From assembly GCF_900129325.1 (NCBI RefSeq), contig NZ_FQUP01000001.1:1654615-1718614 (forward strand): a stretch of 64,000 nucleotides of DNA. The letters run 5' to 3'. The DNA is from Kaistia soli DSM 19436 (GTDB lineage: Bacteria; Pseudomonadota; Alphaproteobacteria; Rhizobiales; Kaistiaceae). Shown here piece after piece: positions 43,537 through 49,584 of this stretch. The notes under the pieces were generated by a model, which was not told the origin of the DNA, searched no databases, and saw only the letters and a list, made by a program, of their open reading frames with translations. Position 1 is the first letter of the stretch. The number at the start of each line of letters is the position of its first letter. The position numbers were made by a program, and so were the translations under genes.

Positions 43537-44480
43537 TGAGCTTCCCGGTCCTTGATCTCGACCTCGCGGGCATCCGTGGCCGTGTCACGCCCAATTTCAG
43601 GCTCGATACCGTCACGTGGTTCCGCGTGGGTGGGCTCGCGCAGATGCTGTTCCAGCCGGCGGATGAGGCCGACCTTCAGTTGTTCCTGCAACAGTTGCCG
43701 GCCGAGGTGCCGGTGCTGGTCATCGGCGTCGGCTCGAACCTGCTTGTCCGTGATGGCGGTATTCCGGGTGTCGTGATTCGTCTCTCGGCCAAAGGTTTCG
43801 GGGGCATGGAGCGGCTTTCCGGCGACCGCATCCGGGTTGGGACCGCTCTGCCCGACAAGCGCGTCGCGGCATTCGCGCTGGACGAGGGCCTCGCCGGCTT
43901 CGCTTTCTATCACGGCATTCCCGGCGCCATCGGTGGCGCGCTCCGCATGAATGCCGGCGCCAATGGCGGCGAGACGCGCGAGCGGCTGGTCGAGGTCACC
44001 GCTCTCGACCGCAGCGGCACCCGCCATGTGCTCAGCAACGCCGATATGGGCTTCACCTACCGCCATACCGACGCTGCCGAAGACCTCATCTTCACCGAGG
44101 CGATCTATCAGGGCGAGCCGGCCAACCGCGGCGTCATCGAGGCCGCGATGGCCGAGGTCGAGGCACATCGCGAACGCGCTCAACCGATCCGTGAAAAGAC
44201 GGGCGGCTCGACCTTCAAGAACCCGCCCGGCCACTCGGCCTGGAAGCTCGTCGATGGTGCCGGCTGCCGTGGCCTCAAAATCGGCGGCGCGCAGGTTTCC
44301 GAGATGCATTGCAACTTCCTGATCAACACCGGCGACGCCACGGCTCATGATCTCGAATTGTTGGGCGAGACGGTTCGCGCCCGCGTGCTTGCAGCGAGCG
44401 GCGTCCGTCTCGACTGGGAAATCAAGCGCCTCGGATTGCCGGGCGCCGGTGGGGCCGTGGAGCCGTTTCTCGGCGCTTAG
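43536..44480 (+). CDS. murB: UDP-N-acetylenolpyruvoylglucosamine reductase MurB
   Basis: This 314-residue flavoprotein reduces UDP-GlcNAc-enolpyruvate to UDP-MurNAc with [57 protein letters not shown] and [15 protein letters not shown] are family landmarks; the Ser in GGSTFKNP is the catalytic proton donor. It starts on the last base of the murC stop. It is the last gene before a gap of about 120 bp with a hairpin and a CtrA-like site. Confidence 0.95.
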
Positions 44481-44503
44481 CGTCCTTCGCCGGCCAGGTG
44501 GCC

Positions 44504-44522
44504 CTGAGTCGTTTTGACTCAG
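44504..44522. other. Hairpin after murB
   Basis: CTGAGTC and GACTCAG pair around GTTTT, 24 bases after the murB stop. With no following T-run it is a poor terminator, but it may attenuate or stabilise the transcript between murB and ddl. Confidence 0.35.
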
Positions 44523-44539
44523 TGCGCGGCGGCAGCTGG

Positions 44540-44554
44540 TTAACGATCGATTAC
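44540..44554. promoter_or_regulatory. Candidate CtrA site before ddl
   Basis: TTAA-N7-TTAC fits the CtrA consensus TTAA-N7-TTAA with one mismatch. It lies about 50 bp before the ddl start, in one of the few gaps inside the dcw cluster. CtrA is the cell-cycle master regulator of alphaproteobacteria. Binding is inferred. Confidence 0.45.
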
Positions 44555-44602
44555 CTCTTCCCTGACATAGTGCCCCGATCGATTCGAAAGGGGTTAACTG
44601 TC

Positions 44603-45526
44603 TTGGCGAAGCACGTCGCCGTCCTGATGGGCGGATGGTCGAGCGAAAGACCGGTTTCGCTCAATTCCGGCAAGGGTTGCGCCGATGCGCTCGAGGTTGC
44701 CGGCTACCGGGTCACGCGGGTCGACGTCCAGCGCGATGTGGCCGAGGTGCTGGCGCGCCTGAAGCCTGACGTCGCTTTCAACGCGCTGCACGGTCCATTC
44801 GGCGAGGATGGCTGCATCCAGGGCGTCCTCGAGATTCTCAAGATCCCCTACACCCATTCCGGCGTGCTCGCCTCGGCGCTGGCCATGAACAAGGCGCGCG
44901 CCAAGGACGTCATGGCAGCCGCCGGCATACCGATCGCCGAATCCGTCCTCATGCACCGGCTTGAGGTCGCCAAGGCGCATCCGATGACGCCGCCTTATGT
45001 CGTGAAGCCCGTGGCGGAGGGGTCGAGTTTCGGCGTCCTGATCGTTCGCGAGGGCGCTCTTCACCCGCCTCAGCAACTCTTTGCTGAGGATTGGGCTTTC
45101 GGCGACACGGTCATGGTGGAGCGTTTTATCGGCGGGCGCGAGCTCACTTGCGGCGTCATGGGCGACGAAGCCCTTGATATCATTGAGCTCGTGACGGCCG
45201 ATGGTGGCTGGTACGACTACGACGCCAAATATTCCGACAACGGTGCACGACACGTAATTCCTGCGCCGCTTTTACCAGATGTTTACCAAAGTATACGGAA
45301 TCTGTCGGTGCGGGCTCATCGGGCTCTCGGGTGTCGCGGCATCAGCCGGGCGGACTTCCGATACGACGATCGACCTGACGGCACGGGGCGGCTGGTTTGC
45401 CTTGAAGTGAACACCCAGCCGGGCATGACGGCGACGTCGCTGGTCCCGGATATGGCAAGGCATGCCGGAATGAGTTTTCCGGAACTGGTGAGCTGGATGG
45501 TGGAGGACGCGTCGTGTGGCAGGTAG
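44603..45526 (+). CDS. ddl: D-alanine-D-alanine ligase
   Basis: This 307-residue ATP-grasp enzyme makes D-Ala-D-Ala for MurF. HVAVLMGGWSSERPVSL opens the protein, NALHGPFGEDGCIQGVLE binds ATP and substrate, and YVVKPVAEGSSFGV and CLEVNTQPGMTATSLVP follow. I start at TTG 44603, preceded by AAGGGG, because the conserved start AKHVAVLMGG follows at once; no ATG fits. Codons around 45242-45303 are strongly unlike the rest (TTA, CCA, CAA, AGT, ATA), which suggests an embedded control site. Its 3' end overlaps ftsQ by 13 bases. Confidence 0.93.
   Translation: MAKHVAVLMGGWSSERPVSLNSGKGCADALEVAGYRVTRVDVQRDVAEVLARLKPDVAFNALHGPFGEDGCIQGVLEILKIPYTHSGVLASALAMNKARAKDVMAAAGIPIAESVLMHRLEVAKAHPMTPPYVVKPVAEGSSFGVLIVREGALHPPQQLFAEDWAFGDTVMVERFIGGRELTCGVMGDEALDIIELVTADGGWYDYDAKYSDNGARHVIPAPLLPDVYQSIRNLSVRAHRALGCRGISRADFRYDDRPDGTGRLVCLEVNTQPGMTATSLVPDMARHAGMSFPELVSWMVEDASCGR
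45271..45287. promoter_or_regulatory. CtrA-spaced direct repeat inside ddl, candidate ftsQAZ control site
   Basis: TTTACC-N5-TTTACC is an 11-bp-period repeat, the spacing of a CtrA box (TTAA-N7-TTAA). It sits within ddl, about 230 bp before the ftsQ start, in a run of codons rare for this genome. In Caulobacter, CtrA controls ftsQA, so a matching role here is plausible but inferred. Confidence 0.5.
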
Positions 45527-46431
45527 GCGGGGGCGAGGCGGAAGAGCAGGGAGCGCGCGGGTCGGTCGACGCCGCCGCGCCGTCAGCTCTGCGGATGCCG
45601 TCCTGGCTGCATCGGCGGATGAAGTCACTGGCGCGTTACGAGCGCCGCCTGCCGCCGCATATCGGGCTTGAACTCACGGCGCTCCTGTTCATCGCGACGG
45701 GCATTGCCGGCGTCATGTCGGCTGGCCGCACCGATGAACTCGTCACCTCGTTGTCGAACGCCAGCGGACTGGTCGTCGAATCAGTGAAGATCACCGGCCA
45801 GATGGAGACCTCCGAGGTCGCGGTGCTGCAGAAGCTGCAGCTTCCGCCAGACGCCTCGCTGCCCGCGATCGATGTTGCCTCGGCGCGTGAGCGCATCGAG
45901 AGCCTGCCCTGGGTGCAGACCGCCTCGCTGCGCAAGGTCTATCCCTCGACGCTGAAGATCACGATCGACGAGCGCCAGCCTTATGTGCTGTGGCAGCACG
46001 ACCAGCAGCTTTCCGTTCTCGACGAGACCGGCCGTGTCATCGGCGATGCCAGCGATGCGCATCGCAGCCTCGTCCGCGTCGTCGGCGCCGGTGCCGAGAC
46101 GCGTGCCCCCGAGGCGCTGGCGCTGGCCGATACGGTTCCGGCCATCCGCGCCCGGCTCAAGGCCGCCGTCCTCATCGGGCAGCGGCGCTGGAATTTCGTG
46201 CTCGACAACGGCGTGACGCTGATGCTGCCGCAGGATGATCCGAAGGCCGCGCTCGCGCGCATTGCCGGCTTCGACCAGAGCAACAACCTGCTCGGCCGCG
46301 ATATCGTCAGCGTCGACCTGCGCCTCGGCGACCGGATGTTCGTACGCCTGACGCCCGAAGCCGCCACGAAGCGCGAAGCCGAACTCAAGGAGCAGGCGAA
46401 GCTTGCGAAGCGCAAAGGGGCGAGCACCTGA
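45514..46431 (+). CDS. ftsQ: Cell division protein FtsQ
   Basis: This 305-residue bitopic protein has a basic cytoplasmic segment (residues 1-50), one membrane helix (about 51-70, LELTALLFIATGIAGVM) and a periplasmic POTRA domain starting at VVESVKITGQ. The FtsQ beta domain follows with LPWVQTASLRKVYPSTLKI (about 130-148). It links FtsBL and FtsWI to the divisome. The GTG at 45514 overlaps ddl by 13 bases. Its stop overlaps ftsA by one base. Confidence 0.92.
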   Translation: MWQVGGGEAEEQGARGSVDAAAPSALRMPSWLHRRMKSLARYERRLPPHIGLELTALLFIATGIAGVMSAGRTDELVTSLSNASGLVVESVKITGQMETSEVAVLQKLQLPPDASLPAIDVASARERIESLPWVQTASLRKVYPSTLKITIDERQPYVLWQHDQQLSVLDETGRVIGDASDAHRSLVRVVGAGAETRAPEALALADTVPAIRARLKAAVLIGQRRWNFVLDNGVTLMLPQDDPKAALARIAGFDQSNNLLGRDIVSVDLRLGDRMFVRLTPEAATKREAELKEQAKLAKRKGAST

Positions 46432-47753
46432 TGGCCCTGTTCGTCACCTCCGAAAGCCGCTTGAAGCCGCTGTCGCCCAAGAAGGCGACCATCGTCTCGA
46501 TTCTCGATGTCGGCTCGTCCAAGGTCTGCTGCCTGATCGCGAAGCTTAAGCCTCGCGAGCTTGGCGACGTGCTGCCCGGCCGTACCCATGCGGTCGAGGT
46601 GCTTGGCATCGGTCACCAGCGTTCGCGCGGCATCAAGTCGGGCGTCGTTGTCGACCTCGACAAGGCCGAGCAGGCGATCCGTCTCGCGGTCGACGCCGCC
46701 GAGCGCATGGCCGGCGTCACCGTCGAATCGCTGATCGTGAACGTCTCCTGCGGCCGTCTTTCGAGCGAAGTCTATTCGGCGAGTGTCACGCTCGCCGGCC
46801 ATGAAGTGGTCGAGAACGACATCAAGCGGGTCCTGGCCGCCGGCCGCGAGCACACCGTCACGCCGGAGCGCGCGCCGATCCATTCGCTGCCGATCGGCTA
46901 TGCCATCGACGGCAATGGCGGCATCCGCGATCCGCGCGGCATGCTCGGCGAGCGCCTCGGTGTCGACATGCACATCGTCACCGGCGAATCCGCGCCGCTG
47001 CGCAATCTCGAGCTCTGCATCTCGCGCTGCCATCTCCAGGTCGAGGCGATGGTCGCGACTCCCTATGCGAGCGGCCTTTCGGCGCTTGTCGACGACGAGA
47101 CGGAACTCGGCGTCGCCTGTGTCGATCTCGGCGGCGGCACCACCACGATCTCGGTGTTCATGGACGGCCAGTTCGTCCACGCCGATGCGATCGCCATCGG
47201 CGGCCAGCACGTCACCACCGACATCGCGCGCGGTCTTTCGACCCGGATCGAGGATGCCGAGCGGCTGAAGACCATGCATGGCAGCGCGCTGCCGTCGGTC
47301 TCGGACGAGCGCGACATGCTTTCGGTTCTGCCGATCAGCGACGACGACCGCGATGTTCCGAACCAGATTCCGCGGGCCGCGCTGACGCGAATCATCCGCG
47401 CCCGCATCGAAGAGGTGCTGGAGCTGGTCCGCGACCGGCTCAACCGTTCCGGCTTCCAGACCATGGTCGGACGCCGGATCGTGCTCACCGGCGGCGGCAG
47501 CCAGCTTGCGGGCATCAACGAGGCGGCGCGGCGCATTCTAGCGCGCAATGTCCGGCTCGGCCGTCCCCTCGGCGTGACGGGTCTGCCCGAAGCGGCCAGG
47601 GGGCCCGCGTTCTCTGCGGCTGTCGGCCTTTTGATCTACCCGCAAGTCGCCCAGATCGAGCAGGTCTCGGCGATGCGCGGCCATCGCATGCCAATGACCG
47701 GGACGGGCGGTTATCTCTCCCGGGTCGGTCACTGGTTCCGGGAAAGTTTCTGA
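46431..47753 (+). CDS. ftsA: Cell division protein FtsA
   Basis: This 440-residue actin-like ATPase anchors FtsZ to the membrane. ATP-binding strands are [15 protein letters not shown] (phosphate 1, about residue 24), [14 protein letters not shown] (phosphate 2, about 227) and [12 protein letters not shown] (adenosine loop, about 351). The 1C subdomain lies between. The last residues, [10 protein letters not shown], form the amphipathic membrane-targeting helix. It starts one base inside the ftsQ stop. Confidence 0.95.
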
Positions 47754-47850: not shown

Positions 47851-49584
47851 ATGACGATCAACCTGAAGATGCCGGACATTACTGAGCTTAAGCCCAAGAT
47901 CACGGTCTTCGGCGTTGGTGGCGCAGGTGGCAACGCCGTCAACAACATGATCCGTTCCGGGCTGGAGGGCGTGGAGTTTGTCTGCGCCAACACCGACAGC
48001 CAGGCGCTCATGTCGGCGCGCGCCGAGCGGCTCATCCAGATGGGTACGGCGGTTACCGAGGGTCTCGGTGCCGGCTCGATGCCCGAAATCGGCCGCGCGG
48101 CCGCCGAGGAAGTGCTGGACGAGATCAACGATCATCTCGCCGGCTCGCACATGGTGTTCGTCACCGCGGGAATGGGCGGCGGCACCGGCACCGGCGCTGC
48201 GCCCGTCATCGCCCGCACGGCCCGTTCGCACGGGATCCTGACGGTCGGCGTCGTGACGAAGCCGTTCCAGTTCGAAGGTGCCCGCCGCATGCGCGTTGCC
48301 GAGGCCGGCATCCGCGAGCTGCAGGAATGCGTCGACACGCTGATCGTCATTCCGAACCAGAACCTGTTCCGTATCGCCAATGAGAAGACGACCTTCGCGG
48401 ACGCCTTCGCCATGGCCGACCAGGTCCTGTATTCGGGCGTCGCCTGCATCACCGACCTGATGGTCAAAGAAGGCCTGATCAATCTCGACTTCGCCGACGT
48501 CCGTTCGGTGATGCGCGAGATGGGCAAGGCGATGATGGGTACGGGCGAAGCCTCCGGCGAGCGCCGCGCCATCCTCGCGGCCGAGGCTGCGATCGCCAAT
48601 CCGCTGCTCGACGAGACGTCGATGCACGGTGCGCGCGGTCTGCTGATCTCGATCACCGGCGGCAAGGACCTGACGCTGTTCGAAGTTGACGAAGCCGCCA
48701 CCCGCATCCGCGAGGAAGTGGATCCGGACGCCAACATCATCCTCGGCGCCACCTTCGAGGAAAGCCTCGAAGGAGTCATCCGCGTCTCGGTCGTCGCCAC
48801 CGGCATCGACAGCGAAGTCCGCGAGGACGTCACGCCGACCGAAGTGCGCATGGCCGAGCTCAACCAGCGCATGAAGGCTGCCGCTCAGGCCGCCGTTCAG
48901 CCGCCGGCTGGCCGTACGCCGCAGGTGAACACCGAACTGCGCGCACCCGCTCCGCAGCAGATCGTCCGTCAGCCGGCGCAGTCCTATGCCCCGGCCCAGC
49001 CGGTCGCCCGCGATCCGGGCGTCACCATCGCCCCGCTGCAGCAGCCGCAGGCGTCGGTGTCCTATGACGAGGCCGAACTCGACCACGAGTTCGACATGGT
49101 CCCGGCTCCGGCCGATGCGCATGACCACCATCCGCAGCAGACCTTCATCCCGCCGGCGGCCGAGGCTCCGGCCTCAAGCCGCATGCCGCGGGTCGAGGAC
49201 TTCCCGGTCGTCGCCCAGCGCGAGATGCATGCTGCTCGCAATGAGGAGCCGCAGGAAGAGGATCGCGGCCCGATGGGTCTGCTCCGCCGGCTGGCCCATC
49301 TCGGCCGTCGCGAGGAGGAAGCCCAGCCGCCGCAGCCGCAGCGGACTGCGTCGGTCCAGCAGGCCCCGGCCCGGGCGCCTCAGCAGGCTCCGCGCCAGCA
49401 GGCTCCGGCTCCCCCGGCGCCACGTCCCCAGCAGGCGCCCCGCCAGGCCGCGCCCGCTCAGGACGGTTATCGCCAGCGCCAGCAGGCGGAACTCGATCCG
49501 CATGGCCGTGTGATGCCGCGTGAGCAGCGTCATGAGGATGACCAGCTCGAGATCCCGGCTTTCCTGCGCCGGCAAGCGAACTGA
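47851..49584 (+). CDS. ftsZ: Cell division tubulin homologue FtsZ
   Basis: This 577-residue GTPase forms the division ring. The globular core (about residues 1-320) has [16 protein letters not shown] and the tubulin signature [11 protein letters not shown] (about 110-120). A very long linker rich in Pro, Gln and Ala follows (about 330-560), typical of alphaproteobacterial FtsZ. The conserved C-terminal peptide [12 protein letters not shown] then binds FtsA. The linker is much longer than the roughly 50 residues of E. coli. It lies 97 bp after ftsA with GAGG before the ATG, and ends at a terminator. Confidence 0.97.

Follow-up and report, generated by a model that had tools for sequence, protein, structure and literature searches.

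The ddl gene of Kaistia soli DSM 19436 contains a short stretch of DNA that appears to be maintained for its base sequence rather than for the protein it encodes; that selection acts on the DNA word is well supported by the alignments. The element very probably controls transcription of ftsQA(Z), and on balance we read it as an internal ftsQA(Z) promoter with a site for a regulator of the OmpR family, most likely CtrA. Of the candidate binders CtrA is the likeliest, and a plausible one. We infer the binding of a protein, the promoter itself, its transcription start, the sign of control and the reach of the transcript. In the window (the whole stretch of 64,000 nucleotides that was analysed), the features concerned are the following.

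44603 to 45526, forward strand: ddl, D-alanine--D-alanine ligase, the host gene of the element (Pfam PF07478, 1.4e-43; PF01820, 2.4e-19; alignments).
45269 to 45298, forward strand: core of the element, conserved DNA (synonymous conservation in up to 14 congeners).
45271 to 45276, forward strand: first half-site, TTTACC (TTTACC, TTCACC or TAAACC across the order).
45282 to 45287, forward strand: second half-site, TTTACC (counts in genus, family and order below).
45292 to 45297, forward strand: TATACG, a candidate -10 hexamer (from codon choice at 45293).
45298 to 45302, forward strand: GAATC, a possible CcrM (GANTC) methylation site (this genus only).
45514 to 46431, forward strand: ftsQ (Pfam PF03799, 3.8e-17; PF08478, 1.5e-15).
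46431 to 47753, forward strand: ftsA (Pfam PF14450, 2.6e-46).
47851 to 49584, forward strand: ftsZ (Pfam PF00091, 4.1e-48; PF12327, 1e-36).

The first gene 3′ of the element is ftsQ, which overlaps the ddl stop codon and begins 227 nt 3′ of the element in the window. It would share its transcript with ftsA, and ftsZ is a possible further target. The start of ddl itself is probably a TTG codon, which gives the LAKHV start common to the congeners.

The preliminary description had pointed to an island of rare codons within ddl, and the codons that it named (GTA, ATT, CCT, CTT, TTA, CCA, GTT, CAA, AGT and ATA) are all present. A sliding codon profile, with frequencies taken from 13 cluster genes in up to 14 congeneric genomes, ranks codons 45242-45301 first for rarity among the 4919 20-codon stretches of those genes (score -2.50), while the next-rarest non-overlapping stretch, in ftsA, scores -1.05. 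In cluster usage TTA accounts for 0.3% of Leu codons, ATA for 1.0% of Ile, CCA for 2.6% of Pro and CAA for 5.5% of Gln. The repeat TTTACC-N5-TTTACC also lies where it had been described, followed by GTATAC at 45291-45296; its 11-bp period is equivalent to N7 between four-base cores, and it has a single exact match in the 5.23-Mb genome, compared with none for a reversed control. Two parts of the earlier picture need redrawing. The whole of 45242-45301 is rare, but codons 45242-45262 vary among congeners and the conserved core extends only from about 45269 to 45298. Similarly, TTTACC-N5-TTTACC is the word of this genome, but across the order the word is looser in its first half.

Within the genus, Ddl was found in all 14 congeneric genomes, and in the codon alignment all 14 use almost the same synonymous codons, the rare ones among them, at 45266-45299, with amino-acid substitutions present inside the block. 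On a synonymous-mismatch score computed by amino acid, which is to be read for ranks only because neighbouring stretches overlap and the genomes are related, 45263-45292 is first of 4547 10-codon stretches (mean mismatch 0.01) and 45266-45355 is first of 4408 30-codon stretches (z -5.66); at 15 and 20 codons the ddl element is second to a stretch of ftsZ near 48484. Most genes contributed 13-14 rows to this ranking, mraY 11 and murB 7 (murB dropped out).

The ftsZ stretch, at 48469-48528, has the strongest synonymous conservation at both of the latter lengths. Two more stretches of ddl, 45158-45217 and 45317-45361, are also strongly conserved at synonymous positions in the genus, and the second holds GCT CTC GGG TGT nearly unchanged. 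The GAATC at 45298-45302 is present in 14 of 14 congeners and in none of the 13 other loci of the family; in the window as a whole GANTC occurs 109 times, where base composition predicts 206. Ahead of ddl, 12 of the 14 congeners have a TTAA about 63-81 nt (here TTAACGATCGATTACC, at 44540-44555) and a GANTC about 22-38 nt (here 44581-44585) before the start codon. These could be a CtrA half-site and a CcrM/GcrA site at a ddl promoter.

Beyond the genus, three samples were compared. The family is represented by 13 loci and the rest of the order by 64 loci from other families, drawn from 143 other-family genomes with a match (the 24 best-scoring, plus 40 chosen at one per family except f24, which is represented twice); genomes whose best match is distant, such as those of family f46, fall outside this sample. 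The third sample consists of 40 loci outside the order, chosen from the better-scoring matches in the class. The full word, TT[TA][TCA]ACC-N5-TTTACC, occurs in 11 of 13 family loci outside the genus, in 44 of 64 order loci, and in none of the 40 loci from other orders. Its second half, TTTACC, is present in 14/14 loci of the genus, 13/13 of the family, 49/64 of the order and 0/40 beyond it. Across genus, family and order the element is borne by 70 of 91 loci, all with identical spacing, and several of the 21 family and order loci that do not have the full word are one base short of it.

Codon choice at the element differs sharply from that elsewhere in the same genes. Among the 77 family and order loci, TTA is used at the element in 17 of 17 cases (4% elsewhere), TCA in 30 of 31 (12%), AAA in 20 of 20 (38%), CTT in 26 of 31 (16%), GTT in 27 of 31 (18%), CAA in 53 of 58 (24%) and TAC in 71 of 75 (52%); because the loci share descent, the p-values attached to these choices are descriptive only. 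The preference for TAC over TAT, a C-ending codon in an A/T-ending run, implies that a word has been kept and not A+T content, and simple A+T richness was ruled out as the cause on this ground. Where CC stands at 45275-45276 and the second half reads TTTACC (55 family and order loci), codon 45272 is in every case TTA, TCA or AAA, codons for three unlike amino acids that are each one step from TAA. The base pattern survives changes among Leu, Ser and Lys, and among Asp, Asn and Phe. Since the word is kept through amino-acid changes from family to order, selection on the DNA word is indicated. The earlier proposal of selection on DNA rather than on protein thus stands: the preliminary description had itself named a lack of synonymous conservation in relatives as what would refute it, and the ddl alignments found such conservation in the genus, the family and the order.

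The same data bear on three other explanations for the island. One is translational, with conserved rare codons slowing the ribosome to assist folding of Ddl. The codons are indeed the rarest in the cluster, but some of the conserved ones are common (GAT 36%, TAC 39%, AAT 43%), the base pattern outlasts the amino-acid changes just described, and ddl of other orders has no such run. Rare-codon pausing was rejected because it is codon identity that is kept, not rarity, and we regard it as highly improbable. A second is that the island arose by chance, horizontal transfer or gene conversion. We found no point in favour of this scenario; the element persists across many families of the order amid neighbouring synonymous sites that vary, and amino-acid substitutions occur within the conserved block. 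Conservation through amino-acid changes and across families led us to reject it as scarcely credible. A third possibility is a signal in the RNA, which could be a structure in the mRNA or a place between ddl and ftsQ where it is processed. Predicted folding of the 41-nt core is weaker than that of its shuffles (z 1.81), as would suit a cleavage specific for single strands. Three longer stretches have no unusually stable structure (z -0.54, 0.45 and 1.30), a search of 44400-46400 gave no Rfam match at gathering thresholds, and the 11-bp period has no evident reason at the level of RNA. Structure and known RNA families were rejected on the fold scores and the Rfam search, and we consider an RNA signal very unlikely.

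The word is widely distributed in the order, being present in most of the families sampled. Among the best 80 named loci of 588 relatives, it is carried by 51, with Rhizobium, Ensifer, Mesorhizobium, Ochrobactrum, Methylobacterium, Microvirga, Roseibium, Chelatococcus and Hyphomicrobium among the named carriers. In the same set the Aureimonas and Parvibaculum loci are without the word, the loci of Devosia, Pelagibacterium and Arsenicitalea have TTTACG as the second half, and the most similar Ddl (91%) is that of a Bosea metagenome genome. The extrapolated start of ftsQ lies 179-335 nt 3′ of the aligned position in these 80 loci, with or without the element. One carrier, L199, is on a metagenome contig labelled Sphingomonadaceae; it has an element of the Hyphomicrobiales type and a Ddl with 66-67% identity, and the contig is likely to have been mis-assigned.

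A substitute for the element was found at one locus, L114, out of the 21 in family and order that lack the full word. This locus has TTTACCTGTTCTTAACC, an 11-of-12 match, 146 nt upstream of its ddl (genome G063), and the same sequence occupies a like place in G099 (C1:2022773). From these sequences it looks as if the site had moved in the L114 lineage from inside ddl to upstream of it. A 10-of-12 match upstream of ddl is also present in 4 of the 70 element-bearing loci.

With regard to the regulator, the key question is how closely the element resembles a CtrA box. Measured against TTAACC-N5-TTAACC, 69 of the 70 element-bearing loci agree at 10 of the 12 positions and L093 agrees at 11, so that each half is typically one mismatch from TTAACC. 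The imperfection has a ready explanation in the reading frame of ddl, because TTAACC in the first half would introduce the stop codon TAA, and in the second half would change a Tyr codon, TAC, to AAC. L093 shows this very change, with AAC (Asn) in place of the Tyr codon and TTAACC as its second half. The element has the two half-sites and the 11-bp period of a full CtrA box; TTAA is present in both halves in 0 of the 70 loci and in one half in L093 only. By our membership rule we therefore do not class it as a CtrA box, but only as an element that would work in the same way. Compared with the alphaproteobacterial boxes, TTAA-N7-TTAAC as given for Hyphomonas in PMC7200025, it shares the spacing and the direct-repeat form, and differs in the mismatch in each half and in its location within coding sequence.

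Genome-wide counts in 81 genomes of the order show how far the analogy extends. TTAACC-N5-TTAACC is clearly enriched (146 matches; reversed control, 36), and words mixed in one half are mildly so (59 against 34, and 72 against 47). The looser word TTYACC-N5-TTTACC has 95 matches, 33 of them inside ddl by coordinates; outside ddl there are 62, against 63 control matches. Having no excess there, the word does not behave as a general site for CtrA. A further consideration is that the Tyr of the second half is present in 55 of 56 element-bearing family and order loci, whereas Tyr occupies this position in only 21 of the 40 loci from other orders. As the residue is kept though replaceable, TTAACC could have arisen more often had it been preferred, and TTTACC may itself be the wanted word.

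This persistence of TTTACC where TTAACC seems reachable is among the points that favour another OmpR-family regulator, such as ChvI/BvrR or CenR, or one so far unrecognised in the Hyphomicrobiales, which would connect envelope stress to the division genes. Another is that among the sampled loci the element was seen only in the order, apart from the oddly labelled L199, whereas CtrA is generally regarded as class-wide. In addition, ACC-N8-ACC, the core of the element, is arranged like the Sinorhizobium meliloti ChvI consensus GCC-N8-GCC as quoted in PMC9731502, in that both are direct repeats of a trinucleotide with 8 bp between, and the part of the Brucella BvrR ChIP-seq data given in Table 3 of PMC9491525 includes single signals near ftsQ and ftsA. 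Unlike the quoted ChvI site, the element has ACC in place of GCC and a T-rich flank: the base before CC is A, not G, in 88% (45274) and 100% (45285) of the 64 order loci, among which a GCC-N8-GCC repeat was not found. Moreover, a single base change separates TTAACC from each of the first-half variants, TTTACC, TTCACC and TAAACC. CenR was set aside on its motif, since both forms compared differ from the element (TGA-N8-TGA in Rhodobacter sphaeroides, and an inverted TCAC/GTGA repeat at the srlA promoter of S. meliloti and three others), and NtrX was set aside because its motif is GCA-N9-TGC. We judge a regulator of this kind to be unlikely, and continue with CtrA as the candidate.

In S. meliloti minCD is a CtrA target, and in the cited part of PMC4433202 the only division genes given as under direct CtrA control are minC and minD; the CtrA ChIP-seq of that study comprises 198 peaks, 79% of them intergenic. 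In Hyphomonas CtrA is stated to regulate ftsAKQZ (PMC7200025). The genome of the window has a perfect TTAACC-N5-TTAACC (L167, 1501-1517) upstream of minC and a MinD/ParA-family gene. Two more CtrA-like boxes, TTTACCGGTAATTAACC and TTAACCGCGGGTTAACC, are present in the same genome (L169, 1501-1517, and L168, 1501-1517).

For the promoter, the evidence comes from position and from codon choice downstream of the repeat. The element has two properties expected of an intragenic ftsQ promoter: conservation of the DNA beyond the constraint on the protein, and a location in ddl (here its 3′ third) that is 5′ of ftsQ and codirectional with it. At codon 45293 the family and order loci use ATA for Ile in 21 of 35 cases (5% elsewhere) and GTA for Val in 18 of 40 (4% elsewhere), a preference that favours TATAC at 45292-45296. 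A simple scan found no sigma-70 consensus match at the element, and on that result a promoter of consensus type was provisionally set aside. The -35 element recognised by sigma-70 is TTGAC. It is nevertheless conceivable that the conserved bases are the -35 and -10 of a plain housekeeping ftsQA promoter with no dedicated regulator, comparable to the ftsQ promoters that E. coli has within ddlB. The strong enrichment of ATA/GTA at 45293 fits this idea, as does the extent of the A/T-rich core, about 30 bp, but the sequence at the -35 position for a 17-base spacer is CTTTTA, CTTTCA or CTTAAA, which is poor against TTGAC, and a bare promoter leaves the constrained 11-bp direct repeat unexplained. 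We consider it rather improbable. For a regulated promoter of the CtrA type, one Caulobacter case described in the cited part of PMC4287350 has an activating full motif with its 5′ base at -39, and the same placement would put the start near 45310 here.

Comparable systems are known. In Escherichia coli, ftsQ promoters lie inside ddlB. The likeness to the present case is that of promoters for ftsQ within the upstream ddl gene; the regulators and the sequence are different, and homology has no support. A closer parallel is the CtrA site of Caulobacter crescentus ftsQA, CCGTTATGACGACATTAACGA in Table 2 of PMC3751295. All 21 of its letters are found in the ddl frame of a related locus (L267), where the site reads CGT TAT GAC GAC ATT AAC GA, and the presence of the published site inside ddl of a relative is a precedent for intragenic control of ftsQA. 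In the Caulobacter-like order (30 of 41 genomes plus three named loci), TTATGAC-N4-TTAA occurs in ddl at 11 of 33 loci, which include three named Caulobacteraceae or Brevundimonas loci, and Val codons at the site are GTT in 7 of 7 cases (15% elsewhere). The letters of the studied site are thus maintained in codon choice within their own group. The loci with a site of this type are among L231, L238, L241 and L251-L280.

The Caulobacter site and the ddl element share a CtrA-type repeat, N7 spacing and a position upstream of ftsQA in the 3′ part of ddl (as judged from L267). The former lies in the RYDDIN codons, about 90 bp to the 3′ side of the latter, and one of its halves retains TTAA; the other half of the published site, as printed in the table, is without it, like the halves of the element. 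At the corresponding position the window reads CGA TAC GAC GAT CGA CCT. On these comparisons the two look like independently placed, separate solutions to one need. A second Caulobacter example is the operon-internal promoter P2, for which the cited part of PMC4287350 gives the motif TTAC-N7-TTCA inside CCNA_00876, together with a GANTC. It resembles the ddl element in being an imperfect CtrA motif in coding sequence with GANTC nearby, and differs in belonging to another operon and in having a start that was mapped experimentally there, as opposed to inferred here. A search of open-licence literature found, in the texts it covered, no previous description of a conserved site of CtrA type within ddl of this order. 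The suggestion with which the analysis began, an internal ftsQAZ promoter or CtrA site, is thus upheld as to an intragenic control site for ftsQA(Z), which is the best reading and has the Caulobacter precedent, and goes no further than plausible as to CtrA.

If this reading is correct, the 3′ third of ddl houses a regulatory element, which would be bound by an OmpR-family regulator, likely CtrA, at an internal promoter, from which a transcript of ftsQ, ftsA and possibly ftsZ would be made at a set time in the cell cycle, separately from that of the upstream mur genes. A bolder version, which we put forward tentatively and at slightly less than even chances, is that the residues of Ddl at codons 45272-45289 are set by the DNA word, that the word is as near to a CtrA box as the reading frame permits without a stop codon, and that it forms a division-control switch in most of the sampled Hyphomicrobiales. 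Codon 45272 specifies Leu, Ser or Lys in element bearers and Pro in 24 of 40 loci of other orders; Pro, Tyr and Gln follow it within 45272-45289.

Finally, we note what such a site would mean for the group. It would bring ftsQA(Z) into the cell-cycle regulon in rhizobia, methylobacteria and their relatives, in contrast to the published S. meliloti work, which in the parts cited places ftsQA(Z) outside the direct targets of CtrA and suggests that CtrA reaches division through minCD and not through ftsQA. Motif scans that skip coding sequence would miss a site of this kind. The ddl element thus names a place in which to seek direct control of ftsQA(Z) in a group that contains nitrogen-fixing symbionts and methylobacteria, and it would provide a clean case of a regulatory site shaping the choice of codons, and perhaps of amino acids, in an essential enzyme.
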